Below, piece by piece: positions 856-42,230 of a stretch of 45,450 nucleotides of DNA. The notes under the pieces are model-generated. The model had not been told where the DNA came from. It saw only the letters and a list, made by a program, of their open reading frames with translations, and did no database searches. A program made the translations under genes and the position numbers. Within the stretch, counting starts at the first letter, position 1. Each line of letters begins with the position of its first letter. This DNA is from Bryobacterales bacterium (GTDB lineage Bacteria; Acidobacteriota; Terriglobia; Bryobacterales; Bryobacteraceae), in contig PMUP01000015.1 in the NCBI GenBank assembly GCA_003166865.1, positions 1 through 45,450 of the forward strand. The letters run 5' to 3'.

Positions 856-3117
856 CTAGGGTTGTTTTGGCGTTTCGGTGAATTCGTAAACTTGAACCGC
901 TGGGCGCCCGCTAGAGCCGGATCCCATCACTCGGGTGGCCGAGGAAAATACCGGCTGCAACTGGCGCAGCGGCCCGAGCGGAACGCAACTGATTCCCGGA
1001 TTCTCTCCCACCAGCACACAGCCTTCGTTGCCGCACGTAGCGGCAACAGACATAGCCTGTTCCGCCGACTCGAATCGCCGAAGCGAAGTAACTTCCAGGT
1101 ACGATTTTCCGCCCTCCTGCTTCGCTCGAAGCCACAAAATCGTTGCGCCCCCGCGCCCATCAACGGATTGCCCTCCGAAAAAGAAAAGCCGCGCCAGCAT
1201 GCTCCGATAGTAGGCGGGACGATAAAACATCCGCGGCCGGTCCTGGCCCTCGGCGTCCGATACAGCGACCGACAGGAAGTAATCGTCCAGCCGGTGCGTG
1301 CGGTCGAATTCGAAGAACGCCCGATACCCGCCGTAAAGCCGGCCGCCTTGTTGAAGCAGCATCAGCCGATCATCCGCCACCACAAAGCGGGTGCGCCAGG
1401 ACTGCAACAACGGGATCGCCTCGAGCTCGGATTGCGCGAGGAAGAATTTGGCCGCGACTTCTGCATTTGCTTGTGTGGGATTGGTGACCGGTATTCGCCG
1501 CGCTACCGCTGAAATCCAATAGCCATAGTCCCACCACGCCATCACGCTGTAGGCTCCAGGCGGGTACGCGCCGCTCGGTCCAAACTGTTGTCTGCTGTAT
1601 CGAGCGTAGTAGAAATCAGGATCTCCAAACGGCTCCGGCGTGGAAACGCGCATCCAGTCCAAGGCCTCCCGCCAGTCCGTCGAAATGCCGGAGGGTTCAA
1701 CATTCTTCACGGCAGCGTTCAGGTTGGGAAGTAGCACGAACATGGCGAAGCACACGGCGGTCACCCTCATCATTTTGCGCCCCGATTTCAACAAGCCGTC
1801 CGTGACGTAGCCAGACAACAGCGCTACTGAGATGGCAAAGTAGTAAGTCATTCGTACTTGCCCCATGGCCAGGACGAAGGTAGCGAATCCCCAGAAAAAA
1901 ACCAGCGTCCGTCCCGGGGTTGGGCGTCTCAAGGCTACTTCGGCCAACAGTAGCAGGCCCAGCAGCGCGAGAAGGTAAGCGCCGTAAAACTGGCGCAAGG
2001 CTGGCATGACAGTGAAATGGCCGTGGTCAAATACCAGCGACTGGAGCTCGGCGACTCCGCGTGAGGCTCTGAAGAGGGAAGGAATGAAATACGGAATGAT
2101 CGACCTCACGGCACGCAGCGGGCCTGGGGCGAGCCATCGAGCGAGCCCCGCTGACAACACCGTTGCGGCAAGCAGCCCAGCGAGGAACGGGAGACGCGGG
2201 CGGGCATATTTACGGCAATGATTCGCCCACAGATCGAGTGCTCCGATCGCCAAGCAGCCCAGCAACAAGGCGGCCAGGCTGAAGTTCATCCAAAGCAGGC
2301 GCCGGAACGGAAAGCAAATTGCCGCGGCGAGAAGGAATGCCACATACAGCGGCCGGAAAGATGGCACGGACTCTGCCAGGGGCCAAAACGAACGGATCCG
2401 ATCGTAGGCCGCCCATGCAATCACTATCCCAACTAGAAATGCGGAGCCGTGAAAAGTGAGCAGATAGGCTGCCAGCGTCAGTCCCGCGGCGATGGCCGGG
2501 CCAAACGAATCGGGTTGTTGGACGGCCCGCAGCATCAGGAAGAGAAACAGCGTCGAAAGCAGGGCCTCCATGACATGATGATCGGTGAACCCAAGGCTTG
2601 AAACGACTAGGAAATGGCCGGGCAAAGTCGCGACCACTGTGGCCGCGATCAGTGCGGCAGGCGCCCCAAATACGAGCTTCGCCAAGGCGAACACAGCTAC
2701 AACAATGAGCGCCCCGATGACGGCCGGATACCATGCGGCAATGACGTGCAAGAGTGATTGCGAGGGGGCGCCGGCGCCGGCCAGCCACGCGATCAGCCCC
2801 AGCAGCCAATCATAGAAGGGCGAGGTGGCAGTGTCCCCGAGGGTGCCGAAAATGACATACGGATCCACTGTAATGCGCCAGGGGAAGTGCCGGATCAGAT
2901 TCTCGGCCACGCGCACGTGGTACCACGCGTCCGTTTCCTGGAAATTTACGAAGCCAGGCTGGAATACGGCGGTGAAGCGCGGGAAGACGCGGATCCCGAG
3001 CGCCAGCAAGCATAGCGCGCCCACGATAATCCACTGCCACCGCGTCGTGATTGCAGCCAACGGGAGACCACGGTTATGTTTTGGAGGCTGCGATGGCTCG
3101 ATATGCGCCGTGCTCAT
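856..3117 (-). CDS. stt3: STT3-family oligosaccharyltransferase (AglB/PglB-like)
   Basis: This 753-residue membrane protein should transfer a lipid-linked oligosaccharide to asparagine side chains on the outer face of the cytoplasmic membrane. About a dozen hydrophobic segments (roughly residues 28-460) precede a soluble C-terminal domain. The hallmark motifs occur in order: an Asp in ETDAWYH (D63) for the first acidic motif, [10 protein letters not shown] (D179, E184) for the second, GVAEL (E357) like the TIxE/SVSE loop Glu, an Arg-x3-Tyr-Tyr segment (R422), and WWDYG at residues 528-532, which recognises the sequon Thr/Ser. The DHH and VAEL forms look more like archaeal AglB than Campylobacter PglB; that is my impression without an alignment. 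The gene is divergent from a PglK-like flippase 63 bases away, which fits one pathway. Length is normal for a single-subunit enzyme. O-mannosyltransferase and ArnT families are unlikely because they lack WWDYG. Confidence 0.92.
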
Positions 3118-3180
3118 CGTCTTGTTGGCGAAGCACCAATTATGGCATAGGCTCGCATCCGGCTAAAATCAGGAGTTGCC
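3118..3180. promoter_or_regulatory. Divergent promoter region between stt3 and flippase
   Basis: This 63-base gap must drive both genes. Rightward, a TAAAAT box at 3164-3169 sits just before an AGGAG ribosome site (3171-3175), five bases from the flippase ATG. If the box is used, the transcript would have almost no leader, so it could instead be incidental. Leftward, CATAAT (3144-3139) lies about 20 bases before the stt3 ATG. I see no convincing -35 hexamer for either. Assignment is by eye only. Confidence 0.35.
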
Positions 3181-4998
3181 ATGCGTGAAGTGGTAAGAAC
3201 CGTGCGACAGGCCCTGGCGTTGCTGGATGTTCGGCTGCGCCGGAGATGGTTGCTGCAGGCGCCTTGGGCGATGGTATCGGCGGCGCTGGAGATGCTTGCC
3301 ACGGGCGGAATGCTGGTCTTGATCCGGCTCATCAGCGACCCGGTTGCGACGAATCGCATGGCTTCTGTGAACGCGCTACGCCAATGGCTCAGGTTTGAAC
3401 CCGGTCCCGGCTTCGTCGCTGGGTTCGGCGTACTGGTGGGATTGATTTATTTGTTGAAGAACGCTCTGCGGGTGGCTGAGACCTACGCGCAGCAGCGCTG
3501 CGCCGCCGAGACAGCGGTGTGGATCTCTTCCGGTCTGCTGGAGCGGTATTTGCGTGCTCCATACAGCTGGCATCTCCGGCGTAACTCTTCCGAGATGCTG
3601 CACAATGTGAACACCGCGGCCGACCAGGTTAGCTGGGTAGTTCTGCAGTCTGCAACGGCCTTGGTTTCTGAAGCCCTGATCGCACTGGGAATTCTGGCGG
3701 TGCTGGTGCAGCAGTTGTCCACCGTGGCGCGGAGCGCGGCGGCTCTCACCGGCGGTGTGACGATTCTGTTGCTCTGGATTACCCAGCAGCGGCACCTCCG
3801 CTGGGGTCGTGCCACGCATAAGGCCGGTATTGAGGAATTGCAAACCTTGCGCCAGAGTCTGGCGGCGGTCAAAGAGGCGAAGATTCTCGGCCGAGAAAGC
3901 TATTTTGTCGCGAGAACTGCCCGGCTTCGCGCTATGCTAGGCGACCTGGAAGCGGTGCGACAGACCACCGAAGTGGTTCCGCGTCTGGTGGTGGAAACCA
4001 CGTTTATCGCCGCACTGGCGGCGCTGATCGGGATCGCGTGGTGGCGGCCCAACCTGGGTGGAGATCTGACGCTCACGCTCGGCATCTTCGCCTACGGCGG
4101 TCTCCGGCTGTTGCCGTCACTGCACCTGTCGGTCTACCGATTCAATCGGATCGGCTCGGGTGAGGCAGGCGTTAAAACTGTTTCGCGGGACTGGCAGGCA
4201 CTGGCGCCGAATCTTGCCGCTAATCTGGGAGCCGCTCCGGGAATGGTCCTCACGGAATCGATCCAGTTTGATGCGGTCTCGTTCACTTACGAAACCGACC
4301 AGGGTGGCATGGCGGAGCCAGCGTTGTACGACATCCATTTGGAGATTCGCCGTGGCGAATCGATTGGGATCGTCGGACCGACCGGGTCCGGAAAGACCAC
4401 CTTAGTGGACTTGATGCTTGGATTGTTGGAACCGACTTCGGGAAGCGTCCGCGTGGACGGGCGCGACATACGGTCGTCACTGCGCGGCTGGCAGCAGCAG
4501 ATCGGTTATGTCCCGCAGAGCGTGTACCTGATTGACGACACCATTCGCCGCAACATCGCTTTAGGGCTGGAGGACGCCCAGATCGATGAAGGCCGGGTAG
4601 CGGAAGCGGCCAACGCGGCGCAACTCGATGAATTTCTCGCTGGGTTACCGAACGGACTGGATACGGCAGTGGGCGAGCGCGGCGTGAAACTCTCGGGAGG
4701 CGAGCGGCAGCGCATCGCCGTTGCAAGGGCGCTCTACCGGCAGCCGGCGGTTCTGGTTTTTGACGAGGCAACCGCCGCCCTTGACAACATCACCGAACAG
4801 GCTCTTACGGCTACCATTCGCTCGCTGCGGGAGAACATAACGAGAATCTTCATCGCCCACCGGCTGAGTACGGTACAGTCGTGCGACCGGCTGGTTTTTC
4901 TTCGCAAGGGAAGGATCGCCGGCGTCGGCACCTACGCGGGGCTGATGAAGAATCCGGAGTTTCTGGCGTTAACTCTTGCCGGCGCCGATATTTCCTGA
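3181..4998 (+). CDS. PglK-like ABC transporter, lipid-linked oligosaccharide flippase
   Basis: This 605-residue half-transporter has six predicted membrane helices (residues 1-325) fused to one ATPase domain; a homodimer is expected. The ATPase shows GPTGSGKT (Walker A, 399-406), Q446, LSGGE (504-508), VLVFDE (Walker B, 524-529) and H560. The membrane half has features I recall from Campylobacter PglK: VPRLVVE near 266 and a Leu-Leu-Pro-Ser segment near 310, with matching length. PglK turns a pyrophosphate-linked oligosaccharide across the inner membrane before PglB acts, and here the gene sits back to back with the oligosaccharyltransferase, which supports that role. An AGGAG site five bases before the ATG fixes the start. 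The 3' end overlaps the oppositely oriented Alg1-like gene by 30 bases. A general lipid A or drug exporter of the MsbA type is the alternative, less likely from context. Confidence 0.8.
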   Translation: MREVVRTVRQALALLDVRLRRRWLLQAPWAMVSAALEMLATGGMLVLIRLISDPVATNRMASVNALRQWLRFEPGPGFVAGFGVLVGLIYLLKNALRVAETYAQQRCAAETAVWISSGLLERYLRAPYSWHLRRNSSEMLHNVNTAADQVSWVVLQSATALVSEALIALGILAVLVQQLSTVARSAAALTGGVTILLLWITQQRHLRWGRATHKAGIEELQTLRQSLAAVKEAKILGRESYFVARTARLRAMLGDLEAVRQTTEVVPRLVVETTFIAALAALIGIAWWRPNLGGDLTLTLGIFAYGGLRLLPSLHLSVYRFNRIGSGEAGVKTVSRDWQALAPNLAANLGAAPGMVLTESIQFDAVSFTYETDQGGMAEPALYDIHLEIRRGESIGIVGPTGSGKTTLVDLMLGLLEPTSGSVRVDGRDIRSSLRGWQQQIGYVPQSVYLIDDTIRRNIALGLEDAQIDEGRVAEAANAAQLDEFLAGLPNGLDTAVGERGVKLSGGERQRIAVARALYRQPAVLVFDEATAALDNITEQALTATIRSLRENITRIFIAHRLSTVQSCDRLVFLRKGRIAGVGTYAGLMKNPEFLALTLAGADIS

Positions 4999-6276
4999 GG
5001 TGTCTCGTGAGATGGGGCGGAACGCCGGAGCGGCCTCGCGTTGCCAGACTTGTTCCCAGGTCTGGGTGCACGATGCCACGATGCCTTGCTGCAGTCGCTC
5101 CAGAACGTCCATTTCGCCGGGGAATCCGTGCAAAAGCTCGTCGATCCGGAGCGCCAATTCTTGGCTCGTTTGGAACGTTAATCCGGTGAAGCCGGGTTGG
5201 AGCTGTTCGGCTAAGCAGGCTCCATAATCGAATGCGCAGACCGGCGTGCGCGCGCCAAACAGATCCATCACCTTCATGGGAAGATCCACCCCGGAGGATG
5301 AGCGATGCATGCAGAATCCGAAATGGGCGGCACAAAGCAACTCCCGGTAGCCGGCTGGATCGAGAAAGGCGGTGCGCACCTCTACGCGCTGCCAGTGAAC
5401 CCCGGACAACCGCCGCTCAAACGCCTCCCGCAATGGTCCGCGGCCGGTGATCAGCACCAACAATCGCAGCCCCGGGGATATGGCTGGAGTAGAGTCCCAT
5501 TGCCTTAAGCCCTCTAGCAGGAGATCCATGTCTTCATCCGCCGTCCAACTGGTTGGGCACACGGCCAATACCGCTCCAGCTGGAAATACGAACCCGGCGC
5601 GAGCCAGCACTCCACCTGCGAACGCGCTTCTCGAAGAGATCGGCACCAGAGGCAGCAGTTCTCTGGGGCGGTCGTAAAGTGCAATCGGAGCCGGAACACC
5701 AAACTCACTGACTAAAATGTCGCGCATCGCCATTGAAACGCAGAAGTGGGCGTCCGCTTTGCGCCCAAACAGCCGCTCGCAAGCCTTAGTCATCTGAACG
5801 GCAAAATGTTTCGGCCCCAGCCGGAGTGCCAGCATCGCGTAGCCAAAATTGTGCCAATCGACAATGAATAGCGAGCCGCGCAACCGCGCTGCTAGCCAGC
5901 CGACTGGCAACGTGGGAAGGCTGGGCGGATTCTGCACCAACAAGGCGCCGCCGCGAGGGGTTCGCGCCAGCAGGAGCCAGAGTACCTGAAACCAGAGGAA
6001 GACCGCGCGGACTCCCGAGGTGAGCAGAAACCGAAACCGCGACGTCCCTTCCTTAGCCCTACCAATAGCAGCAATCCGGCAGACGCGGATTCGCGGATGG
6101 TCCAAGACAGCGCGCTCCAGCGGCGTTTCCGAATATCCAGCCAACCACACTTCCGCTCCATCACCCGCCAAAGCCAAGGCATGATTCAACATCCGCGGAC
6201 TCCGGCCTAGATCGCCCAGAACCACTACCGTGACACAGTACCGATGTTGGGTAGCGGCCATGAGCGGGAAAGACAT
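4969..6276 (-). CDS. alg1: Alg1-type beta-1,4-mannosyltransferase (GT33)
   Basis: This protein looks strikingly like eukaryotic ALG1, which adds the first mannose, from GDP-mannose, to GlcNAc2-PP-lipid. With the ATG at 6276 it has 435 residues. Diagnostic blocks in order are VVVLGDLGRSPRM (17-29), VQNPPSLPTLP (114-124), VDWHNFGY (139-146), CPTSWTADED (240-249), ITGRGP (276-281) and HRSSSGVDLPMKVMDLFG (324-341), each close to the ALG1 consensus. GT-B fold; probably membrane-associated through hydrophobic stretches near residues 90-105. The reading frame continues upstream to 6417, but that extension is antisense to the next gene, so I reject it; 6261 is another possible start (a TATGAT box at 6283-6278 lies just before 6276). 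It is divergent from a MurG-like gene with a 37-base gap. The donor and linkage in this bacterium are inferred from family resemblance. Confidence 0.88.
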   Translation of the reverse strand: MSFPLMAATQHRYCVTVVVLGDLGRSPRMLNHALALAGDGAEVWLAGYSETPLERAVLDHPRIRVCRIAAIGRAKEGTSRFRFLLTSGVRAVFLWFQVLWLLLARTPRGGALLVQNPPSLPTLPVGWLAARLRGSLFIVDWHNFGYAMLALRLGPKHFAVQMTKACERLFGRKADAHFCVSMAMRDILVSEFGVPAPIALYDRPRELLPLVPISSRSAFAGGVLARAGFVFPAGAVLAVCPTSWTADEDMDLLLEGLRQWDSTPAISPGLRLLVLITGRGPLREAFERRLSGVHWQRVEVRTAFLDPAGYRELLCAAHFGFCMHRSSSGVDLPMKVMDLFGARTPVCAFDYGACLAEQLQPGFTGLTFQTSQELALRIDELLHGFPGEMDVLERLQQGIVASCTQTWEQVWQREAAPAFRPISRDTSGNIGAGKS

Positions 6277-6313
6277 ATCATAGCGTTGTCTCCAATTCAC
6301 TTCATCGACACGT

Positions 6314-7495
6314 ATGAAAGAAGCGGTTAGCTCCAGCCTACCTCCGCAGCCGGTGCGCAGGAGGGTCGCTGTTGCGGGAGGTGGAACTGCGGGGCATGTC
6401 ACTTCGGCCTTAGCCATTATGTCGGCTTACCAACAGAGCGTTGGCGCGGAAGTGTATTTCGTCGGTTGTCAAGGCGGCTTCGAGACCCAACTGGTCCCAT
6501 CCCACGGATATGATTTGGAGATCATCCAAGGCGGCCCTTATGCCCGTCAAAGCCTGTGGGGGAAACTGCGATCGTTGGTAGGGCTGGCCCGCGGGATACT
6601 CACTGCTCGACGGTTGCTCAAATCCAGGGAGACGAACCTGGTCATCGGTTTGGGGGGATACGCGTCGGTGGGAACATTGCTGGCGGCCAGACTTCTCGGT
6701 ATCCGCTCGGTTATCCATGAAGCGAACGTCTTTCCTGGCCTGGCAAATCGGCTGACAGCCGGTCTCAGCGACTGTGTCTTTGTCGGCTGGGACGAAGCCC
6801 GCAGTTCGTTTCCAGGCTCAAAGACGGTGGTAACAGGCAATCCAATTGAAGCGAATATTGCATCCGCGGCGAGAGAGCGGGTCGATACGTGCTGGCAAGC
6901 GGGGCCCCGAAGGATTTTGGTCACGGGTGGGTCCCTGGGATCGCAATTCCTCAATCGGAAAGTTCCAGTGTTGCTTGAGAGTGTTCGGGCGCTGGGCATT
7001 CCCATCGCGGTTCGCCATCAGACTGGAGCAGGCGAGACTGGCGCGGGTGAGACGGAGCGAGTGAGAGACGAGTATCAGCGGCTGGGCATCGCGGCGGTGG
7101 TGGAATCGTTCATTGACGATATGGCGGCGGCGTATTCTGAAGCCCACTTTGTGATCGCTGCAGCCGGTGCTCTGACGCTGGCCGAGCTGGCGGCGTTTGG
7201 CCTGCCTTCGTTGGTGGTTCCTCTCGAGGTGGCCGCCAACGGTCACCAGATCTCGAATGCCAAAGCTTATGCGGGACGATCGGGCGGGGGTTGGGTGACG
7301 GAACGGGAGTGGGACCCGGGGTTGCTGGCTGCGCTTATCGCGGCGCCTCTGAGTGACTTCGACGCGTGGCGCGCGCAAGCCCATCGGGTCCGAGAGATGG
7401 CCAACCCGAATGCGGCTCAAAAGCTGGTGGACGAGTGTGAGGCCCTGCTCGCATCACGAGCTCCCGCTGTCAAAACCGGCCACGATCTCGCGTAG
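6314..7495 (+). CDS. MurG-like GT28 glycosyltransferase, possible Alg13/14 equivalent
   Basis: The 393-residue product has the two-domain GT28 layout of MurG, which moves GlcNAc from UDP-GlcNAc to a lipid-pyrophosphate sugar on the inner face of the membrane. Visible blocks are AGGGTAGHV (21-29), GLGGYASVGT (112-121), IHEANVFPGLANR (134-146), TGNPI (174-178), TGGSLGS (204-210), FIDDMAAAYSEA (266-277), AGALTLAELA (284-293, the UDP-sugar Glu at 291) and HQ at 311-312. Small departures from typical MurG are GTAGH for GTGGH and ANGHQ for ADDHQ. The gene is not next to any cell-wall gene; it pairs divergently with an Alg1-like enzyme. Since Alg13/14 are MurG relatives that supply the second GlcNAc, that step is my inference. 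It could still be the housekeeping murG. A short tandem GAGET repeat occurs at residues 239-248. The 3' end overlaps the next gene by 42 bases. Confidence 0.75.
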   Translation: MKEAVSSSLPPQPVRRRVAVAGGGTAGHVTSALAIMSAYQQSVGAEVYFVGCQGGFETQLVPSHGYDLEIIQGGPYARQSLWGKLRSLVGLARGILTARRLLKSRETNLVIGLGGYASVGTLLAARLLGIRSVIHEANVFPGLANRLTAGLSDCVFVGWDEARSSFPGSKTVVTGNPIEANIASAARERVDTCWQAGPRRILVTGGSLGSQFLNRKVPVLLESVRALGIPIAVRHQTGAGETGAGETERVRDEYQRLGIAAVVESFIDDMAAAYSEAHFVIAAAGALTLAELAAFGLPSLVVPLEVAANGHQISNAKAYAGRSGGGWVTEREWDPGLLAALIAAPLSDFDAWRAQAHRVREMANPNAAQKLVDECEALLASRAPAVKTGHDLA

Positions 7496-8617
7496 CGATT
7501 TACAGAACGCATCGACGGTGAATCGATCGCGCTGCAGGGCTACATGCGATCGCAGGCCCTCTTCGAGCGAGCCGTCGGTGAGCACGCGCTCGATCTTATC
7601 GGCCGCCTCCTGGACCGTATTGAAGACCAACTGGGGATGCCCGCCGACGATCTCGGCAGGGCCGCCCGAGTTGTGTACGAAAGTGATGCAGCCGGCCCGC
7701 TGGATCTCGGCCGGAGCGATCCCGAAGTGCTCTTCTTCCATGGTGTGAATACCGTAGCGGTGCCGGGTCATTTCGAAGACCAGTTGCTCACGGCTCAAAT
7801 CGTAGAGCATGCGGAACCATGGCCGCGTCCGAGCCAACTCCTGGAGACGCTGTACATATGCGACGCTGTCAGGATGGCCAATCAGGGTAAAGGTAACCGG
7901 ATGGCCCCGGCGCCGGACTTCTTCGATGATGCTCACCGCGACGTCCCAGCGCTTGGTTTCGTGCAAACGGCCGGCCGCGACGAAGCCGGCGTGGCGCTCC
8001 TGCCACGGTACCCGGGGGAAGTCCCCAGGCACGGGTGGGTACACGACCATGGGAAGAGTTCCATACAATTCGCGGCAACGTGCCGCCACGAACTTCGAGT
8101 TCGCCAATGTTTGATTGCGGCCCAAGCCGGCCGGTGTCGCACGCTGCATCCGCTGGCAAAAGGCCAGATAGGCTGGATGCACGCCGGGGAGCTTGTGAAA
8201 CCATCGTATTTCGTCTTTCGGGCGCGGCAGGTAGGCCGCCGGATAGTGAACGTATTGCAGGCCGCGGCGGTGGAAATCGACTTCGTTATGGGTGCTAAAC
8301 AGGATGTCGTACGGGTGGCTCCGATCGAGATCCTGCGCAAATCGCCCCACCAGGGAGCGCTCCAGTTGTGCGCCACGAGTGGGCATCCAACGAAAGCGCT
8401 GGAACGGCGGAGGAGCGACGTGGACGGTAAAATCGCCTTCTTTAAGAGCCGTACCAAAGCTCCGATTCACGGCTGAGTAATCGATGGGCCACAGAGCGGC
8501 CAACGAAAGATCATAAGCGCCGCACAACGCCTGAAGCGCCCAGGCGGCTACGAGGTTCCCCCCACCTTGCGAGTCAACACGCGACTGAACGATGAGAACG
8601 CGCTTCTTGTCCGCCAT
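7454..8617 (-). CDS. Alg11-like GT4 glycosyltransferase (copy 1)
   Basis: This 387-residue GT-B enzyme resembles ALG11, the GDP-mannose alpha-1,2-mannosyltransferase of N-glycan assembly. Matching blocks are VDSQGGGN (14-21, nucleotide loop), QTLANSKF (169-176), VVYPPV (191-196), AAGRLHETKRW (214-224), YGIHTMEEEHFGIAPAE (288-304) and VHNSGGPAEIV (314-324). The GT4 E-x7-E pair is E296/E304. No membrane helix is obvious; it would act at the cytoplasmic face. It is divergent from an FkbM methyltransferase over a 76-base gap and overlaps the MurG-like gene tail by 42 bases, convergently. A close paralog lies at 9632-10819, so the two may add successive or alternative mannoses. ALG2-type or other GT4 specificity cannot be excluded; sugar and linkage are inferred. 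Confidence 0.82.
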   Translation of the reverse strand: MADKKRVLIVQSRVDSQGGGNLVAAWALQALCGAYDLSLAALWPIDYSAVNRSFGTALKEGDFTVHVAPPPFQRFRWMPTRGAQLERSLVGRFAQDLDRSHPYDILFSTHNEVDFHRRGLQYVHYPAAYLPRPKDEIRWFHKLPGVHPAYLAFCQRMQRATPAGLGRNQTLANSKFVAARCRELYGTLPMVVYPPVPGDFPRVPWQERHAGFVAAGRLHETKRWDVAVSIIEEVRRRGHPVTFTLIGHPDSVAYVQRLQELARTRPWFRMLYDLSREQLVFEMTRHRYGIHTMEEEHFGIAPAEIQRAGCITFVHNSGGPAEIVGGHPQLVFNTVQEAADKIERVLTDGSLEEGLRSHVALQRDRFTVDAFCKSLREIVAGFDSGSS

Positions 8618-8693
8618 CCTAAGCTCCAGTCACCAGCCTAACAAGCCAGCCTAACAAGAGTGATAGACAATATAAGAACCGAGTGCACGGCAG
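8618..8693. promoter_or_regulatory. Divergent promoter region with 13-base tandem repeat
   Basis: The gap between the GT4 and FkbM genes holds two perfect head-to-tail copies of CCAGCCTAACAAG (8633-8645 and 8646-8658), then an AT-rich box (TATAAG, 8671-8676) about 17 bases before the FkbM start. The box plus the stretch up to the ATG is recognisable again before the decayed FkbM copy (10820-10905), but the 13-base repeat is not. The repeat could be an operator or a recent slippage product. Confidence 0.4.
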
Positions 8694-9614
8694 ATGAATC
8701 CTTTTCGCGCCATACTGCGTCCGGAGTATTTGTACCGGCCACGCCAAATCTGGCGCCGGCTGGGGAGGGATGCGATCCTCGCGCGGAACGAGGTTCGATT
8801 GGCTTGGGAACTGCCGGTTGAGATAGGCCCCACTTCATGTGTCGGGGAAGACATTCGCAATCTCGGGATTTACGACCGCGTAGTTGCCGAAGCGATCTTC
8901 CGCTTGTTGGATCCAGGCGAGCAGGCCTTCGACATTGGGGCTAACATCGGGCAGAACGCCTCCATCATGGCCCTGGTTGCTGGACGGCGAGGCCGGATCG
9001 TTGCATTTGAACCGGGCCCGATCGCTTGGCGCGTTCTGGCCAAGAACGTCGAAAGCTGGGCCGATTATGACCTCGCGCCGATCGCTGTGGTGCGAAAGGG
9101 TGTGAGTTCCCGCATCGGCACGGGTCTGCTGCGCGAGGCGGCTGATTTCGGGCAATTTTCAATGGAGGCCTATCATCCGGGCACAACGTGGAGTTCGCCG
9201 GAAAAGCCGCGCGAAATAGAGATCGAATTGACGACGCTGGATGCCTTTGTGCCAGACCAAACCGAGATCGGCCTGATCAAGATGGATGTGGAGGGGCACG
9301 AATCGTCCGTCTTGGACGGGGCCAGAGAACTGCTCCGGCAAAAGCGGATTCGCGACATCATTTTTGAGGACTATCGACCCCAGCCCAGCCCCGTCACGGC
9401 GCGATTGCAAGCTGCCGGGTATACGGTGTTCGCTCTTTTTCCCGCTTGGCGCAAGCCAGTCCTTCTCACTCTGAAAGAGCATGCGGAGGGGAAGAGCGGC
9501 TCGCACGTTCTCCTCAATTTTCTAGGGACACTCGACCCCGAGCGTGCCATAGCCCGATTTGAAAGCGCTGGTTGGAAATGCTTTCGCAGCAGCGCTCGCT
9601 TCAAACAAAAATAG
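8694..9614 (+). CDS. FkbM-family SAM-dependent methyltransferase
   Basis: A 306-residue methyltransferase of the FkbM type, which commonly O-methylates sugar hydroxyls or natural products. The S-adenosylmethionine site is seen as FDIGANIGQN (79-88), with FEPGP (105-109) for the acidic loop, and the FkbM signature KMDVEGHE (196-203) follows. The N-terminus (residues 1-50) is a basic, Arg-rich stretch with no signal peptide, so it is cytoplasmic. No ribosome site is visible before the ATG; the transcript leader appears short. It is divergent from an Alg11-like enzyme and tail to tail, 17 bases apart, with a second one. In this setting the likely substrate is a sugar of the lipid-linked glycan, an inference from position. 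A frameshifted duplicate lies at 10906-11829. Confidence 0.85.
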   Translation: MNPFRAILRPEYLYRPRQIWRRLGRDAILARNEVRLAWELPVEIGPTSCVGEDIRNLGIYDRVVAEAIFRLLDPGEQAFDIGANIGQNASIMALVAGRRGRIVAFEPGPIAWRVLAKNVESWADYDLAPIAVVRKGVSSRIGTGLLREAADFGQFSMEAYHPGTTWSSPEKPREIEIELTTLDAFVPDQTEIGLIKMDVEGHESSVLDGARELLRQKRIRDIIFEDYRPQPSPVTARLQAAGYTVFALFPAWRKPVLLTLKEHAEGKSGSHVLLNFLGTLDPERAIARFESAGWKCFRSSARFKQK

Positions 9615-9631
9615 CAGGCCTCGAGCACGGT

Positions 9632-10819
9632 TCAAGAGAATTCCTCCACTTGGCGCCGGATCTCCTGCATGAAGGTTTCGATGGTCCAGCGCGCGGCGCG
9701 CGCGTTGGCCTGGGCCGCGAGTTCGCGCTGTAAATCTTCGTCTTCCAGTACGCGCGAAATCTTGGCCGCGGCTTCGGCGGAGTTCTCAAACATCAGGCGG
9801 TCATCGAAGCCGGCGATCTCCATGGGGCCGCCCGAGCGGTGAACGAACGGGATGCAGCCGGCACGTTGAAACTCCGCTACGGCGATGCCGAAATGCTCGC
9901 GAACCATGCAGTGAATTCCGTAACGATGCCGCGCGACGATCTGGATCGTTTGTTCGCGCAGCAGATTGGTGTGCACGGTAAACCAGTCTGAGTGTTGTTT
10001 CGCGAGTTGGGCCAATTGACGTTCGGTCTCCGGATGGTCCCGGCTGCCGATGAGAGTAAATCGCACGGGGTGGCCGGACGCGCGGACCAGGCGAAGAATC
10101 TCCACGGCTTGCGGCCAATTCTTTTCGGGCGCTTGGCGTCCCAGAGCAACGAAGGAGCTTTCGCGCTGTTCCCAAGGGATGCCGGGAAAGCCGCCTGGAA
10201 CGGGAGGATGCACCACAACCGAATCGATTTCATAGGCTCCCCGAATGAGTCCGCGAGTGTACTCCGAATTGGCAAGGGTGACATTCCGGCGAATACGTTC
10301 CGGCGAAATTCCGCCGATCCATTTGCAAATGCCCCAGTAAAGAGCGACGCTGCCGGCAAACTGGTACCAACGTTTCTTATCGGATTCACGAGGCCACGAG
10401 TTCCATAGCTTATGCTCATTGGCGGCACCGGGCGTCGCGTTCCAAGGGAAATGAACGTATTGAATGCCTTTGGTTCCGAAGTCAAATTCGTTGTTGGTGC
10501 TGATGATAACGTCGAAGGGCTGGCGTGCGATGAGCCATTTGCAGCAGCGCGAAAGGAATGCAGCTTTGAGGAAATCCCCATGGAATGGCATCAGGGCGGG
10601 TATCCGATCATAAATAGACGGCACGTAGTGAATCTGGAAATCACTGGGCTTTAGGGCCGTACCGTAATAGCTGTTCAGTTCATCGCAATCGACTTTCCGC
10701 TTGGTCAAGAGCGTAAGCTCGGTGGAGTCACGCAGGGCTTGGATGGTCCATGCGGCAACGGCTTGTCCGCCACCGTGGCCTTCGAGCACCGGATGTACAA
10801 TCAGGACTCTCTGTTTCAC
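9632..10819 (-). CDS. Alg11-like GT4 glycosyltransferase (copy 2)
   Basis: A 395-residue paralog of the enzyme at 7454-8617, sharing the blocks LEGHGGGQ (12-19), TLANSEYT (181-188), VVHPPVPG (202-209), YGIHCMVREHFGIAVAE (300-316) and VHRSGGP (326-332). E308/E316 form the GT4 catalytic E-x7-E pair. The GTG at 10819 is chosen because it places the protein start exactly as in copy 1, a few residues before RVLIV. The open frame runs on to 11071, but that part is antisense to the duplicated methyltransferase remnant and has no GT similarity. No clear ribosome site precedes the GTG. Differences from copy 1, such as HTM to HCM and HNSGG to HRSGG near the donor site, suggest it may have diverged in acceptor or donor. 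Specificity is unknown. Confidence 0.8.
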   Translation of the reverse strand: MKQRVLIVHPVLEGHGGGQAVAAWTIQALRDSTELTLLTKRKVDCDELNSYYGTALKPSDFQIHYVPSIYDRIPALMPFHGDFLKAAFLSRCCKWLIARQPFDVIISTNNEFDFGTKGIQYVHFPWNATPGAANEHKLWNSWPRESDKKRWYQFAGSVALYWGICKWIGGISPERIRRNVTLANSEYTRGLIRGAYEIDSVVVHPPVPGGFPGIPWEQRESSFVALGRQAPEKNWPQAVEILRLVRASGHPVRFTLIGSRDHPETERQLAQLAKQHSDWFTVHTNLLREQTIQIVARHRYGIHCMVREHFGIAVAEFQRAGCIPFVHRSGGPMEIAGFDDRLMFENSAEAAAKISRVLEDEDLQRELAAQANARAARWTIETFMQEIRRQVEEFS

Positions 10820-10905
10820 TGATTTGGTTTGAGTATCACACGGCGGAGCGCGGGCTCCATGGATTTCCCGAATCGTTACACAATAGAAGGACGAGAGCCG
10901 GGCAG

Positions 10906-11829
10906 ATGAACATTTTCGCACCATCCAGCGCCCGGAGTATTTCTTCCACCCGCGCCAAGTTTGGCGCAGGCTGCGGAGACATGCGCTGCTCGCGAGCAAT
11001 GCGGTTCGAACGGCTTGGGGATTGCCGGTTGAGATTGATCCTATTTCACACGTCGGGGAAGACATTCTCAATCTCGGAGTCTACGACCGCGTAGTCGCCG
11101 AAGCGATCTTCCGGCTGTTAGATCCGAGCGAGCAGGCCATTGATGTTGGGGCTAACATCGGGCAGAACGTCTCGATCATGGCTCTGGTTGCTGGGCGGCG
11201 AGGCCGGGTGGTTGCATTTGAACCCGGCGCAATTTCCTGGAGCATCCCTAACTAAGAACGTCGAATCGTGGGCGGATTATGACCTCGCGCCGATCGCCGT
11301 CGTGCGAAAGGGGCTTAGCTCCCGCATTGGCACGGGCTGCTGCGCGAGTCGGTTGATCTCGGTGGATTCACAGTCGAGGAAGATCCTCAGGGCATGCCGA
11401 ACATTTGGCTGGAAGGGCGCGGATCAGAGATCGAACTCACATCGTTGGATGCATTTGTGCCCGGCCAAACCGAGATCGGCCTGATCAAGATTGATGTGGA
11501 AGGCCACGAATCGTCGGTCTTGGAAGGCGCGACACTGCTTTTACGGCAAAAGCGGATTCGCGACATTGTTTTTGAGGACTTTCCACCACAGCCGAGCCCG
11601 GCTACGTTGCGATTGCAAGCTGCCGGGTATACGGTGTTCGCTCTTTTCCCCACATGGCGCAAGCCAGTGCTTCTCACTCTGAAAGAGCACGCGGCGCATT
11701 TCGGCGGCTGCGAACCTTTACGACTTTACCCAGCGACGGCAAAAACGTACCAGCAACTACGTCCTCAACTTGGCCGGGGAAACCCGGAAGCCGAAACAAG
11801 TAGCCTTTCCCAGGCGTCTCACCTGCTGA
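10906..11829 (+). pseudogene. Decayed FkbM methyltransferase (four frameshifts)
   Basis: This is a broken copy of the intact FkbM gene at 8694-9614. Reading across frames recovers nearly the whole protein: RPEYFFHPRQVWRRL near the start, VGEDILNLGVYDRVVAEAIF, DVGANIGQNVSIMALVAG, ESWADYDLAPIAVVRKG, IKIDVEGHESSVLEGA and LQAAGYTVFALFPTWRKP. The frame changes within the first five codons, after the FEPGAISW segment near 11245, near 11338 (a lost base where copy 1 reads GGGTCTGCTG) and in a degraded stretch between about 11690 and 11750; the frame after that ends at a TGA, 11827-11829. Its start context resembles that of the intact copy. Clustered sequencing errors are possible, but four independent events and a degraded C-terminus point to real decay. 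No functional product is expected. Confidence 0.82.
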
Positions 11830-11900
11830 AGACAAAGGGTTAAGCGACGAGACCCAACACTGGCTTCGCTCGCGGCCATTCAGTTGCAACATATCAACAG

Positions 11901-13718
11901 ATGTCTTTCGCGGTGCCCGCTCGCAAAACGTCTTGGAATCAACGTTTAGCGGCTCTGCGCAACGTGCCACCCGTGCTGCGGCTGGTGTGGGACGCTGCTC
12001 CCGCCGTGGTGGCCAGCGGGATCGCGCTACGCTTGGTTAGCGCACTGATTCCAGTGGCGATGCTGACCATTTCCAAGTTCATCATCGACTTGATCAATGC
12101 GAAGCATTCCTCCACCATCCCAGCGCAAATGTGGTGGCTGCTCGGCGCTGAATTTCTACTGGCCGCGGCGAATCAGTTATTGGGCCGGACCATCGACTAC
12201 ACCGACGCTCGCCTGGCCGATGAGTTTACGCGCGAGGTCAGCCTGCGATTGATCCAGCATGCCACCCGGCTCGATCTGGCGTCGTTTGAAGATCCCAGCT
12301 TCCACGACGTGCTGGAACGCGCGCGCCAGCAAGCTACCGACCGCATCGGGATGCTCAACGCGATGGGCCGGCTGCTGCTGCAATCGATCACGCTCATTTC
12401 CCTCTCAGTCGCGGTAGTCTTCTACTCGCCGTGGCTGTTCTCGCTGCTGGTGGTTTGCGTAGTGCCCGCGTTCATGGGCGAAAGCCATTTCGCGTTCCTG
12501 GGCTATTCGCTGGCGCACGAGATCACGCCGGTGCGCCGCGAGGTGGACTATCTGCGCCTCATCGGCACCAGCAAGGAAAACGCCAAGGAAGTGAAGTTGT
12601 TCGGCCTGGGCGCCCATTTGCACGATCGTTACGCGTTGCTCACCGGCCAGATCATCGGCAAGAACATAAAGCTGACGCGCCGGCGTTTGGTGTGGGGGTC
12701 CTTATTCGCCGTCATCGGCTCCATCGGCTATTACGGCAGCTACGTATTTCTGGTGTGGCAGGCGTTGCAGGGACGCATCAGCATTGGCACGCTGATCCTG
12801 CTGACCGGCGCGATCGCCGGATCGAGCACGCAACTGCAAGGCGTCTTCTCCCTGTTCTCGCACATTTCCGATCAAGCCCTGCACTTGACGGACCTGATCG
12901 CCTTTCTCAAGGTGCAGCCCAACATCCGCTCGCGTCCCAACGCCATCCCGGCACCCCGGCCCATCCGGGATGGGTTCGATTTTCGGGATGTGTCGTTTCA
13001 TTATCCCGGGTCGTCGCGATTGATTCTAAATGACTTGAACTTCCGCTTGCATCCTGGTGAGCACGTTGCACTTGTGGGAGAAAACGGACAGGGCAAGACC
13101 ACCCTGGTAAAGTTGCTGGCGCGGCTCTACGACCCTACCAGTGGCGTCATTTACCTGGATGGGAATGACTTGCGCGACTACAACGTCGAAGAACTGCACA
13201 AGGAGATCGGCGTTATTTTTCAGGACTTTGTGCGCTACGACATGCCGGCCAGGATGAACATTGGCGTTGGCAAGATCGACGGCGTAGACGATGACGAAGC
13301 GCTCTGGATCGCTGCGAAAAAGAGCGGAGCCGATAGCTTGCTTCGCCGCTTTTCCTCCGGCCTGGACCAGATGCTGGGCCGGCGTTTTGAGGGCGGCGTG
13401 GATCTTTCCGGGGGCGAGTGGCAAAAATTCGCGCTGGCGCGGGCCTATCTGCGCGATGCCCAAGTGCTGATCCTGGACGAGCCGACCGCCGCGCTGGATG
13501 CCGTCGCGGAATCCGAGGTATTCGCCCGATTCGCGGATCTATCGCGCGGCAAGATGGCGCTGCTGATCTCGCACCGCTTTTCCACGGTGCGCAAGTCTGA
13601 CCGCATTGTGGTGCTGGAGGACGGCCAGATTTACGAAGAAGGAACTCACGATCAGCTAGTGGCCCATGGCGGCCGCTACGCGAGCCTTTTTGAATTGCAG
13701 GCTGCGAGCTACCGATGA
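11901..13718 (+). CDS. ABC exporter (fused permease-ATPase), coupled to glucan synthase
   Basis: A 605-residue half-transporter with six membrane helices (about 35-320) and one ATPase domain. Motifs: GENGQGKT (Walker A, 393-400), Q441, LSGGE (502-506), VLILDE (Walker B, 522-527) and H558. The last four bases overlap the start of the following glucan synthase gene (ATGA), so translation of the two is coupled. In rhizobia the exporter NdvA/ChvA works with the synthase NdvB/ChvB to move cyclic beta-1,2-glucan to the periplasm, and the arrangement here suggests the same partnership; the sequence alone does not prove the substrate. It is clearly different from the flippase at 3181-4998, having an LSGGEWQ signature and a different membrane half. 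A 71-base gap separates it from the end of the decayed methyltransferase. Confidence 0.82.
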   Translation: MSFAVPARKTSWNQRLAALRNVPPVLRLVWDAAPAVVASGIALRLVSALIPVAMLTISKFIIDLINAKHSSTIPAQMWWLLGAEFLLAAANQLLGRTIDYTDARLADEFTREVSLRLIQHATRLDLASFEDPSFHDVLERARQQATDRIGMLNAMGRLLLQSITLISLSVAVVFYSPWLFSLLVVCVVPAFMGESHFAFLGYSLAHEITPVRREVDYLRLIGTSKENAKEVKLFGLGAHLHDRYALLTGQIIGKNIKLTRRRLVWGSLFAVIGSIGYYGSYVFLVWQALQGRISIGTLILLTGAIAGSSTQLQGVFSLFSHISDQALHLTDLIAFLKVQPNIRSRPNAIPAPRPIRDGFDFRDVSFHYPGSSRLILNDLNFRLHPGEHVALVGENGQGKTTLVKLLARLYDPTSGVIYLDGNDLRDYNVEELHKEIGVIFQDFVRYDMPARMNIGVGKIDGVDDDEALWIAAKKSGADSLLRRFSSGLDQMLGRRFEGGVDLSGGEWQKFALARAYLRDAQVLILDEPTAALDAVAESEVFARFADLSRGKMALLISHRFSTVRKSDRIVVLEDGQIYEEGTHDQLVAHGGRYASLFELQAASYR

Positions 13719-16700
13719 GCCCACAAACGCAGACCCAAATTATAGAAGACGCCCCAACCGGGACTCTGTCGCCGGTGGTCAACGGTTTTCATGTTTCCGA
13801 TCGTCTGCGTGAGTGCGCGGCGAAGTTGCGCGAGCACGTCCGTGGGCCGTTAGCCTCCCGCTGGCTGAAGGACAACTATGCGCTCCTGCAATCCCAAATC
13901 ACCGATCTGCGGCACACGCTGCGCCCGGCATTCTTGCGCAAACTTCCGAACACAAGTGCAGGCGAACCGCGCATCCATCCGATTGCGGCCGGATGGCTGG
14001 CCGAAATTGCCGCCGAGTGGCTGGCGACGGCGCCGGGCGTTGTCGATTCCGATGTCCTGATGCCGTTCGCCCACGCCTTGAGAGAAAACCATTCTTTTGA
14101 AATGGCCGAGCTGTGGGCCTTCGCCCCCATGCTGAAGTTTGCGACCATCGAGCGGCTCTGCGCCAATCTGGAAATCGAGCGCGTGGTGGCCGGCTGCATT
14201 CGCACCGTCTGGGCGATGGAAGCCATTTCCTGGAAGGCTTTCGTCGAAACGGCCTCCCGTGCAGAAGCTGTGCTGCGGAAAGATCCGGCCGGGGTGTACG
14301 CGCGGATGGATTTCCCGACACGTGATCGATACCGCCTGGAGCTGAAGCGGCTCGCGCGCCGCGCCAAGCTGACAGAAGAAGAAGTGGCCACCGCCGCCCT
14401 CGAATGCGCCGAGCGAGCGCAGGCCGCCCCAGCCCAGGACAATGACAACAGCGACACGCGGACGCATCACGTCGGCTACTATCTGATCGGACCGGGCGCG
14501 AGAGACTTTCGCCGCACGGTTGGCTCCAAGGCTTCGCCGGCCTGGCTCTTGTTAGATCTTGTCGAGAGTTACCCGAACACGTGCTACACCGCTGTCGTGG
14601 CGATCCTGACGGCGCTGCTGGTCGCTGGCTTCGCGTGGATGGCCGGGCCGATTCCCTGGTGGACGTTCGCGTTCCTCATCGTCCCAGCCAGCCAGGCGGC
14701 GCTCGAGATCACCAATGCGGGCGTGAGCCGTCTGCTGGATCCACGGGTGATCCCTTGCATGGACTTCGCGGACACGATTCCTGACGACTGCAAGACCATG
14801 GTGGTGATTCCCACGCTTCTGCTCTCCGAGGCCGGTTGCGCGAAGCTGCTCAAGGATCTCGAGATTCGTTATCTGGCCAATCGTGATCGCAACCTGATCT
14901 TCGCTCTGCTGACCGATTTTCCCGACGCCAACGGACCCGAGACCGATGGCGACGCCGTTTTGAACTCGTGCTCCGACGGCATTCGACAGTTGAACAAGCG
15001 CTATGGCTCCGAGGAACACGGGCCATTTTATCTGCTGCACCGCGCGCGCCGCTGGAATCCGCAAGAGCGCAAATGGATGGGGTATGAACGCAAGCGCGGC
15101 AAGCTGAACGACCTGAACAAGCTGCTACTGGGCCGTGGAAACTGGTTCGATACCGCCGTCGGCGATCTGTCGCGCCTGGATGAAATCCGTTTTGTGATCA
15201 CGCTGGACACCGACACGCACCTCCCTCGCGACACCGCCGCGCAGATGGTGGCCGCGATGGCGCATCCGTTGAACCGCCCGATTCTGGATCCCGTGACGAA
15301 TGCCGTCACAGAGGGCTACGCGCTGCTGCGGCCGAAAGTGGCCATCGGTGTCGACTCCGCCCACCGTTCCTGGATTGCCCGCATATTTAGCGGCCAGCCA
15401 GGCTTTGATCCCTACGCGACTTCGGTCTCCGATGTCTATTACGATCTTCACGGACAGGCTAGCTTCACCGGAAAAGGCATCTACGATGTACGCGCCTTCG
15501 ACGCCGCCGTCGGCGAGCGCTTTCCGGAGAACGCCATACTGAGCCACGATCTCATCGAAGGCGAGCACGGCCGCACCGGCCTCATGAATGTTGAGTTGGT
15601 AGAAGACTACCCGGCCACTTACGGTGCGTTTTCGAAACGCAAACACCGCTGGGTGCGTGGCGATTGGCAGCTGCTTCCGTGGTTGTTTGCTCATCCGCCG
15701 GTTCCTGACGGGCGCGCCGCCAAGAATCCCCTTTCGGCTCTATCGCGCTGGAAGATCCTGGATAACCTTCGCCGCAGTTTGCTTGAGATTTCGGTGCTTT
15801 TGCTGTTGCTGGCGGGCTGGCTCGCGGCCCCGCACCCGGTACTTTGGACTTTCGCCGTGCTGCTACTCTGGCAGCTTCCCGCCTACGCGGATATGTTGCT
15901 GAGCATCATTCGCGCGCCCGAGCGCCGCTTTTGGAGGGCTTTCAGCAAATTGCTCGGCGGGCGTTTCCTCGACAGCCACCGCGATACTCTTCTCAACCTG
16001 GTTTTTATTCCGCATCAAGCCTGCCTCATGGCCGACGCTATCGGTCGCACGCTGTGGCGCAAATATGTTAGTGGTGCGAACTTGCTCGAATGGGAGACCA
16101 TGGCGCAATCGGAGCTGGGAGCCGGACCGCGTTTCGGGATCTTCGACCGGTATCTTTACATCTCATCGCTGCTGTGGTTGCCTTTCCTGTTTCTGGTCAG
16201 CCCGCTCCCGGTTATCGTCGCGCTGATTGGCGCGGTTTGGGTTACCGCCCCGCTGGTGGCGGGTTGGCTCAACGAATCGTTGCCGAAGGGCGCGGCGATG
16301 CCGCCCAAGGATCGAGACTTTCTGCGAGAGACGGCTCTTCGCACCTGGCGTTACTTCGCCGACCATTCCACGGCGGAGCATCACTGGCTGGTGCCCGACA
16401 ACGCACAGGAAGACCCGCCGCTTGTGGCGCACAATATTTCGCCGACGAATCTCGGGTTTTCGCTGACGGCGCAGTTGGCGGCGCATGATTTCGGGTACTT
16501 GGGTTTGGACGAGTTGTCCATCTCGATCCAGCGGGTCTTGGAAACCATGGCGGGCATGCCGCGCCACCGTGGGCATTTCTTCAACTGGTATCAGACACAT
16601 ACCCGCCGCCCCCTTGCGCCCCAATACGTTTCGAGCGTCGATAGTGGGAACCTCGCCGCCTCCCTGGCGACGCTCCGCCAAGGCTGTCTGCTGTTATTGA

Positions 16701-18118: not shown

Positions 18119-18126
18119 CGCACCGC

Positions 18127-19548
18127 TTACTCCGTGCGAGGTTCGGCAGATTTCAGTGCGCGCGAGGAGGTGGAGCGCGGCTTTTTCTTCCTCGGGGCCG
18201 CCTTCTTCGCCTCTTTGGCCGGAGGCGTGTGCGGGGGCTCGCTGAAGCCAATCAGCTCCATGGCATGCGATGCCGGTTCATTGGCCATAAACCAACGCCA
18301 CACATTTCCCGTTAGCAAGTTCTCCGCGCTCAGCAATGTAATGCCGGCGTCAATGCCGACCACGTCGGTATCGAACCATTGGAGCGTCGGATTATAACCG
18401 TCCACGAATCCGTAGCGGCCGAACACGCGGTCTCCGAAATGTTCGCGAATAGCCTGGAGGGCCGGAATCGAAATGTCGGGTGTAAACATCAGCGATCCCC
18501 CGGGGGCGGCTGGAGCAACGGTTCCGTCCACCGGTTCGAATGTCTTGATTTCTCCGTAGATTCGATAGCCCTTGGGCCCGTCGGAAGCGGTAATGCCCCA
18601 GATCACCGGCCCGAAAGTGCTGGGCAGGCCGAAGCTGAAACAGTATTGCTGATTGGCGCGCGTGGCGTTCACCGAGTTCAGAAAGAAATCCAGGAAGCCC
18701 CGATCACGCCGGTTCCGGAAATCGATCCAGGCGTGCGAATACTGATGCGTGAACAGCGGGCCGCCGCTGATGAACTTGTAGTTTCCGTATTGATAGAAGG
18801 GCCGTTGCCATGCATACCAGGAATCCGCGGGAATCGGATGTGTGGGCGAACCGATGGCCAGAACATATAGCAGACTCAGCTCGGAGTAGGTATCCCATCG
18901 GTACTTGAGAAAACCCTTCCCGCGAACCCAGCCGTGCGAGAGCAGCAAGGGGTCGCCATCCAGCATCCACTGGAAGTCCACGCGGTTGTAGATCTCGGCG
19001 GCCAGCTTGGGGATCTCGGAATCATCGGAGAAGTACTGCGCGGCGGTGAGAACGCCCGCGAGCAGAAACGAGGTGTCGACGGAGGACGTCTCGCTGTCCC
19101 ATTTGCGATCACCGGTGGAGACGTCCATCCAGTGATAAAACCAGCCATGCTCCTGGTTCGCTTTATCGGCAAAGAACCGCAATGTCACGCGGACGCGATC
19201 GGCCGCCTCCTGCCTGGTGACCCAGCCGTGCTCCACGCCGATGCAGATTGCGGTGAGCCCGAAACCAGTGGCGGCGGTGCTCGCGATATCGCGGCTGGGA
19301 CCCTTGGCGCGTCCGCCGTCCACTCGCGCGCGATCCAGCACCAAACCCGTGCCGTGGTCGGCTTGCTCCCAGAAATAAACGAAGCTGCGGTGTTCCAGAT
19401 CCTCGAGGAAGGCGCGATCCGCCGGCGAGACCGGCGCCACTTGATCCCCAGTGAGGACCGGGGCCGTGGGGCCCACGGTGGCTACGGGCACTGCCCCTGA
19501 GAGCACCAGTAAGGCCGCGAGAAAGATTGCTGTGGCGCGGAGGATCAT
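18127..19548 (-). CDS. Exported glycoamylase-like / GH144-type beta-glucanase
   Basis: A 473-residue protein with a Sec signal (residues 1-25, hydrophobic LAALLVLSGA) and an all-alpha barrel domain of the glycoamylase/GH144 type, a family that includes endo-beta-1,2-glucanases. Recognisable stretches are RSFVYFWEQADHGTGLV, STAATGFGLTAICIG, EHGWFYHWMD, SSVDTSFLLAGVL and FTHQYSHAWIDFRNRRD. It resembles the glycoamylase-like half of the convergent glucan synthase, which ends eight bases away, so it probably cuts the glucan made next door. The last 30 or so residues are an unusual Lys/Arg/Ala/Pro-rich tail, perhaps for binding an acidic surface. It lies five bases after the GH39 gene and is probably cotranscribed with it. 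Exact bond specificity is unproven. Confidence 0.8.
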   Translation of the reverse strand: MILRATAIFLAALLVLSGAVPVATVGPTAPVLTGDQVAPVSPADRAFLEDLEHRSFVYFWEQADHGTGLVLDRARVDGGRAKGPSRDIASTAATGFGLTAICIGVEHGWVTRQEAADRVRVTLRFFADKANQEHGWFYHWMDVSTGDRKWDSETSSVDTSFLLAGVLTAAQYFSDDSEIPKLAAEIYNRVDFQWMLDGDPLLLSHGWVRGKGFLKYRWDTYSELSLLYVLAIGSPTHPIPADSWYAWQRPFYQYGNYKFISGGPLFTHQYSHAWIDFRNRRDRGFLDFFLNSVNATRANQQYCFSFGLPSTFGPVIWGITASDGPKGYRIYGEIKTFEPVDGTVAPAAPGGSLMFTPDISIPALQAIREHFGDRVFGRYGFVDGYNPTLQWFDTDVVGIDAGITLLSAENLLTGNVWRWFMANEPASHAMELIGFSEPPHTPPAKEAKKAAPRKKKPRSTSSRALKSAEPRTE

Positions 19549-36788: not shown

Positions 36789-36922
36789 GATGGCCCTCCT
36801 ATTCCGTTTTGACTTTTCGTCCCGAGTCATTTTACACCCAACCGCCTCCGCGTGCGCCGGCCTGACGGGACACTTCGAGCCTGGAACAGGAGTTGCGGTG
36901 CGAGGGTGTTACTGTTTCTTGT

Positions 36923-42155: not shown

Positions 42156-42230
42156 GGAATGACGCCGGGAGGCCAAAAATGGAACCCCGGTTGAGTCCCT
42201 CGTATCTGTTAAGCGCGGAGGATGTGTTTT

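Follow-up and report, generated by a model that had tools for sequence, protein, structure and literature searches.

The window analyzed here is 45,450 bases long and opens a 94-kb contig (PMUP01000015.1) in the 6.67-Mb genome of a member of the Acidobacteriota (Bryobacterales). It carries a glycosylation locus whose sugar chain may start like eukaryotic N-glycans, and all genes named in a preliminary description of this DNA were located at the positions given there, the intact ones between 856 and 11,071. They encode an STT3/AglB-type oligosaccharyltransferase (856 to 3117, minus strand, 753 amino acids [aa]), an ABC exporter that is a probable lipid-linked oligosaccharide flippase (3181 to 4998, plus strand, 605 aa), a putative β-1,4-mannosyltransferase of the GT33/Alg1 type (4969 to 6276, minus strand; open reading frame [ORF] open from 6417), and a MurG paralogue of family GT28, probably a second-GlcNAc transferase (6314 to 7495, plus strand, 393 aa). 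Two GT4 glycosyltransferases, GT4a (7454 to 8617, minus strand, 387 aa) and GT4b (9632 to 10819, minus strand; ORF open from a TTG at 11071), flank an FkbM-family methyltransferase (8694 to 9614, plus strand, 306 aa), and a broken second FkbM copy follows (10906 to 11843, plus strand). Strand switches strictly from gene to gene across 856 to 11071, with short overlaps at two convergent ends, so that the locus is a series of divergent and convergent pairs and not one operon.

The oligosaccharyltransferase expected at position 856 was confirmed by profile search, with scores above the Pfam cut-offs for PF22627 (73.2 bits; cut-off, 27) and PF02516 (57.7 bits; cut-off, 24.5). It matched TIGR04154 with 392.8 bits over residues 30 to 745, under the cut-off of 450 for that model. 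In a phmmer search against PDB, the best solved relatives were 5gmy (3.2e-46) and 3waj (7.8e-46), archaeal-type enzymes that we take to be AglB of A. fulgidus; PglB was not among the matches. Residues D63, D179-H180-H181, E357, R422, and WWDYG (528 to 532) align onto their equivalents in 5gmy, and we assume that they represent the catalytic first Asp, the DxD/DHH motif, the Glu of external loop 5 (EL5), the Arg, and the WWDYG motif of the family. The window protein thus has a family profile score above cut-off, with each of these elements aligned. In the STT3 proteins of acidobacterial relatives, the same columns were conserved wherever aligned (the L023 and L043 sequences are incomplete); the last motif reads WWDFG in L027, L043, and L046 and TWDKG in L038. 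Non-acidobacterial STT3 proteins align at the first Asp, at a DND, and at the Arg, and they retain WWD-G, apart from L032, which has PWDFG.

Additional STT3 genes were also observed. The genome of the window holds a second one (contig C65, 3 to 662; L023), which is truncated by the contig end and 70% identical to the window STT3. A second STT3 of full length occurs in two congeners (L094 and L095); the DNA retrieved on either side of it (18 and 12 kb) yielded no other gene of the set. In L034, a tandem STT3 pair (3180 to 5963 and 6035 to 8824; 61% identical) stands beside a single GT33 cluster.

We then examined the GT33 protein. The Pfam scan of its ORF gave generic GT4-type domains only, no GT33-specific profile was among its Pfam and NCBIfam matches, and a PDB sequence search with it gave no match; therefore, provisional comparators were used. 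The sequences of human ALG1, ALG2, and ALG11 and of yeast Alg1 were set down without a database record, and the human letters were checked against published residues. In the excerpts of three papers (PMC10816918, PMC7616334, PMC13218555), the ALG1 residues G44, Q50, S258, and A360 all fit the provisional sequence (4/4), as do G347 of ALG2 and L86, Y279, Q318, L381, E398, and the peptide INIPFDELK at 374 of ALG11. Fifteen further ALG1 variant names with no paper behind them were not counted; six of them (E342, T443, H260, L385, Y162, and V429) do not fit. The window protein is 35% identical to the provisional human ALG1 over 435 aa, end to end (248 bits), and 33% identical to the provisional yeast Alg1, the letters of which are unchecked, over 421 aa (213 bits). 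The GT33 protein of L031, whose letters were unseen when the ALG1 sequence was set down, is closer still to human ALG1 (45%). Among 13 window proteins compared, ALG1 was matched by the GT33 protein alone. As a control, 1 of 10 ORFs of L025, a locus rich in glycosyltransferase genes (families unverified), matched ALG1, with at most 52.8 bits. Against these provisional comparators, the homology is end to end and far above that of other GT4-fold enzymes, in agreement with the Alg1-type enzyme that had been assigned to position 4969.

Shared motifs run along the full length of GT33. The predicted model of the protein is of the GT-B type, with a predicted local distance difference test (pLDDT) score of 89.2, and Foldseek returned GT-B enzymes, BshA and MshA first, with Campylobacter PglA also among the matches. 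Matches to homologues start at ORF residue 38 to 41 in congeners and at about residue 60 in more distant relatives, which places the start probably at the ATG at 6276; the gap to the divergent MurG-like gene is then 37 bases. Ranked by identity, the closest named records are metagenome-assembled genomes labelled Terriglobia and Bryobacterales (Acidobacteriota). The protein is predicted to transfer β-1,4-mannose from GDP-Man to a GlcNAc2-PP-lipid.

The MurG-like protein at 6314 contains PF03033 and PF04101 and scored 234.7 bits with TIGR01133, under the equivalog cut-off of 250.25. It shares family GT28 with the peptidoglycan MurG and is 31% identical to the canonical MurG of the same genome on contig C104, which lies near a PF00953 gene, presumably MraY. 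Unlike the peptidoglycan enzyme, the window copy is linked to GT33 and falls outside the canonical clade: in the MurG tree, the GT33-type copies (18 rows) form a clade apart from the canonical cell-wall copies (the 12 that came with the retrieved loci), with support of 100/100. Two MurG homologues were found in 18 of 20 distinct GT33 genomes (E 1e-10; 21 genome handles, of which G162 and G215 share the same coordinates; G125, G206, G208, G210, and G212 were left out), and in G186 the paralogue and GT33 are on different contigs. The Pfam scan of the protein did not list an ALG14 domain. The "MurG/Alg13-14-like" assignment was therefore narrowed to a candidate MurG-type GlcNAc transferase distinct from cell-wall MurG, and its Alg13/14 part was dropped. 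A GlcNAc-GlcNAc-Man core would need a dedicated MurG-type enzyme, which fits the presence of the paralogue beside Alg1; this protein is the probable second-GlcNAc transferase.

Next, the distribution of the gene set was investigated in 25 distinct GT33 loci, namely the window, 22 loci from a non-exhaustive scan of named genomes with two degenerate patterns, and 2 from the phylum of L034. The 22 scan loci are labelled Acidobacteria, Deltaproteobacteria, Proteobacteria, Binatia, Phycisphaeraceae, Bacteroidetes, and uncultured bacterium; there was no archaeal GT33 locus among them. In the DNA retrieved for the 25 loci, several of which are on short contigs, we found the ABC exporter in 20, the GT33-type MurG in 18, STT3 in 17, the GT4a/b group in 12, an Alg2-like gene in 5, a PF00953-type gene in 5, and FkbM in 1. 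The predicted recurrence of the set in related genomes was thus borne out: further genera and records with different phylum labels have it too, and chance co-location was rejected since the same set, with the GT33-type MurG, recurs across GT33 loci. Eukaryotic contamination was likewise rejected, because the clusters of L034 and L045 are followed by trigger factor and ClpX, and in L034 also by Lon.

At the genome level, STT3 was present in 23 of the 25 GT33 genomes; G214 was negative by PF02516, but its own locus contains STT3. Of 297 genomes in the phylum of L034, 51 had STT3 above the cut-off and 3, L034 counted, had GT33. In a sample of 200 genomes of the family, GT33 matches were obtained in 10 at E 1e-3, of which 8 (E under 1e-50) were accepted and 2 (G024 and G076) were left out as weak. 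All eight accepted genomes have STT3, compared with 22 of 200 overall (E under 1e-30; 29 at 1e-3, the seven weaker matches being left out). Fisher's test of this association gave 6e-9, with kinship among genomes uncorrected.

The remaining genes of the locus departed further from the preliminary description. For the exporter (ABC_tran, 112.2 bits; ABC_membrane, 34.2 bits), which had been called PglK-like, an ABC exporter in the PglK position was found, but not specifically PglK: it scored 212.4 bits with the PglK model (cut-off, 1000) and 253.6 bits with the MsbA model, each under its cut-off. Three congeners have an orthologue with 75% identity. The two GT4 proteins had been described as Alg11-like. 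They are genuine GT4 enzymes (PF00534, 52.5 bits for GT4a and 51.4 bits for GT4b), 42% identical to each other, and form their own clade (100/100), with only distant similarity to the provisional human ALG11 (24% across a portion of the sequence; 49.7 and 65.1 bits). ALG11_N was not listed in their Pfam scan, and they were not assigned to Alg11. A PDB search with GT4a gave nothing. The start of GT4b is probably the GTG at 10819, by comparison with GT4a.

The FkbM gene at 8694 is intact as expected (PF05050, 63.2 bits; TIGR01444, 80.1 bits). The second copy is 81% identical in DNA to the intact copy over 794 aligned columns (about 10906 to 11694) and contains in-frame stops and a frame change; its fragment ORF (11394 to 11843) scored 37.5 bits with PF05050. 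The GT4-FkbM pair is present twice in tandem (7454 to 11843), with the second FkbM decayed and its GT4 still open. The pair seems to have been duplicated in the window. At the threshold used, FkbM was found in the window locus only. The "methylated" glycan of the preliminary description rested on this gene and was not upheld in that wording; methylation is not conserved, and the FkbM step is the weakest part of the mechanism proposed below.

We searched for the missing first step and for Alg2. Besides the gene near the canonical MurG, the genome has two PF00953 (WecA/Alg7-superfamily) genes, ORFs of 503 and 510 aa on contigs C24 and C22, which are candidates for the first step. By similarity, a PF00953-type gene is present in five of the loci (L034, L039, L041, L045, and L092), with the Pfam domain confirmed in L034 and L045. 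In five loci, L030, L031, L033, L034, and L040, the GT4 gene directly after GT33 encodes a protein 45, 49, 41, 41, and 32% identical, respectively, to the provisional human ALG2 (110 to 322 bits; those of L031 and L040 are partial at contig ends). This similarity is specific to ALG2, and it was found in these relatives only, none of which is acidobacterial. A PDB search with the Alg2-like proteins gave GT4-type enzymes and no ALG2 by name. No Alg2 orthologue was found in the window genome (best match, 46 bits).

These results suggest, with a probability of about 0.7, that the cluster makes a GlcNAc-GlcNAc-Man lipid-linked core for AglB-type N-glycosylation; the protein families, the conserved catalytic residues, the co-location under several phylum labels, and the separate MurG clade are established, and we infer the donors, the linkages, the lipid, the glycan structure, and the Asn acceptor. 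In the proposed pathway, a WecA/Alg7-type enzyme encoded elsewhere would make GlcNAc-PP-lipid, the MurG paralogue would attach the second GlcNAc, and the Alg1/GT33 enzyme would attach β-mannose. The two GT4 enzymes would lengthen the chain, and in the window strain FkbM would possibly methylate a sugar. The ABC exporter would then flip the lipid-linked oligosaccharide, and the AglB-type STT3 would transfer it to the Asn of N-X-S/T. Support for the pathway also comes from clusters of some relatives in which GT33 is accompanied by a PF00953 gene or an Alg2 homologue.

Several observations weigh against this pathway. The STT3 proteins adjacent to GT33 are of two dissimilar types, with the EL5 Glu column unaligned in the non-acidobacterial type, so that either type may serve other glycans; in L038 and L032, moreover, the WWDYG motif is replaced, as described above. 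In the family sample, 14 of the 22 STT3 genomes are without GT33. Two GT33 genomes, G207 and G209, have a single MurG homologue each and thus no paralogue. Finally, STT3 was expected at orthologous loci, and this expectation holds in most genomes and fails in G200 (labelled Phycisphaeraceae) and G233, where none was detected by PF02516 or a second STT3 profile. The latter two genomes, which carry GT33 and the MurG paralogue, raise the alternative that a surface polysaccharide or glycolipid is the main destination of the lipid-linked oligosaccharide, with STT3 as a bystander or a non-Asn transferase; six further genomes carry STT3 elsewhere than in the retrieved locus, and some of these loci sit on short contigs. 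We consider this alternative very improbable: the assemblies of G200 and G233 consist of many contigs and may be incomplete, STT3 lies within the locus in 17 of 25 cases with most catalytic residues conserved, and the scan of 20 window proteins listed no family of polymerases or O-antigen ligases. It is also unlikely, though less so, that the locus serves N-glycosylation with a core unlike that of eukaryotes, in which case the MurG paralogue and GT33 would have retained their folds while their donor or acceptor changed (e.g., another HexNAc or a hexose). Glycosyltransferase families generally switch donors easily, the identity of GT33 to ALG1 is only 35%, and the window genome yielded neither Alg2 nor, in its GT4 enzymes, Alg11 orthologues. 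By contrast, the motifs in common span the whole of GT33, and the MurG paralogue accompanies GT33 in 18 of 25 loci, as expected if it makes the GT33 acceptor.

The GlcNAc-GlcNAc-Man pathway was compared with known systems. As in the eukaryotic dolichol pathway, an Alg1 homologue occurs with an STT3-family transferase, joined in some relatives by an Alg2 homologue and a PF00953 enzyme. Unlike that pathway, the window cluster has a MurG-type GT28 enzyme in place of the split Alg13/14, as well as an ABC exporter; the bacterial STT3 proteins are of the AglB or PglB core type, and Alg11 is distant. A complete set of Alg7, Alg13/14, Alg1, Alg2, and Alg11 was not found in the window genome. The Campylobacter pgl locus likewise has a single-subunit STT3-family transferase near glycosyltransferases and an ABC exporter, whereas the window has GT33 and GT28 enzymes and an STT3 nearer archaeal AglB; with this STT3 and the low PglK score, the locus is not of the Campylobacter type. 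The archaeal AglB pathways (A. fulgidus AglB; the Sulfolobus Agl24 route) resemble the window in the type of STT3 and differ from it in the bacterial host, the MurG paralogue, and GT33. Agl24 is described as an enzyme that forms chitobiose and has Alg14/13 and, more distantly, MurG as relatives (PMC8993221), and excerpts of Lombard 2016 state that archaea lack Alg1 (PMC4973528).

Downstream of the locus, positions 11901 to 19548 encode an ABC exporter, a 1467-aa protein, and a PF10091 glucoamylase-like protein. This group looks like a cyclic-glucan type, which is our assumption as to its function. We excluded the ABC gene (11901) and the large gene (13715) from the set because they resemble a separate glucan synthesis and export group; in the best-hit table of 22 loci, the former had one weak match (28%, in L037) and the latter none. 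Similar secreted-looking proteins with an identical C-terminal end are encoded 6.6 kb apart at 35049 to 36830 and 43393 to 45117. The small protein at 42222 to 42827 has a tail (VPEPSSLALLG...) that we take to be PEP-CTERM-like, suggesting an exosortase system in the genome.

The origin of Alg1 was also considered. In excerpts of Lombard 2016, the closest prokaryotic relatives of Alg1 could not be determined, and Alg1 may be a eukaryotic innovation (PMC4973528). In our literature search (titles and abstract starts, with most subscription journals outside it), we found no report of a bacterial Alg1/GT33, which CAZy may nevertheless list, and nothing on PglB in Acidobacteria. A 29-row GT33 tree was rooted on Alg2, with two eukaryotic rows (human and yeast, both provisional sequences), no archaeal rows, and the partial GT33 proteins of L046 and L047 left out. 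The two eukaryotic ALG1 proteins grouped with L031, L034, and L045 (96/95), and this group was nested in the non-acidobacterial GT33 set (96/95). When the outgroup was omitted, support was 98/97 for the split of these five rows and 98/95 for the wider non-acidobacterial set. These trees tentatively suggest, at somewhat less than even odds, that eukaryotic Alg1, and perhaps Alg2, derived from a bacterial N-glycosylation cluster of the window kind, such as is now found in genomes labelled Deltaproteobacteria and Proteobacteria. Before eukaryogenesis or alongside it, bacteria would then already have built a GlcNAc2-Man core by means of a MurG paralogue, Alg1, and Alg2.

Several results speak against a bacterial origin. 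Monophyly of bacterial GT33 was not rejected by the approximately unbiased (AU) test (p 0.088). A clade of L031, L034, and L045 was not rejected either (p 0.36), and in a quick tree built with yeast left out, human ALG1 belonged to no starred group. When the acidobacterial GT33 proteins were constrained to group with one another, the resulting tree was better than the free one by 2.7 log units (p 0.56), indicating that the free search was not optimal. The first of these results leaves room for the reverse transfer, in which bacterial alg1 and alg2 were acquired from a eukaryote and later spread among bacteria, as does the grouping of bacterial Alg2-like proteins together beside the eukaryotic pair (85/93). 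We regard this course as rather unlikely, given that the eukaryotic pair lies inside the non-acidobacterial set, with L031, L034, and L045, in both rooted and unrooted trees, and that bacterial GT33 occurs under several phylum labels together with a MurG paralogue of its own clade. A scan of viral contigs with a GT33 profile found no eukaryotic-type Alg1.

The presence of bacterial GT33 proteins beside STT3 makes the question of the origin of Alg1 testable. If the enzymes act as proposed, core glycans of the eukaryotic type could be made with them as bacterial tools, and the range of N-glycosylation with an Alg-type core would extend to the Acidobacteriota and other, mostly uncultured bacteria.

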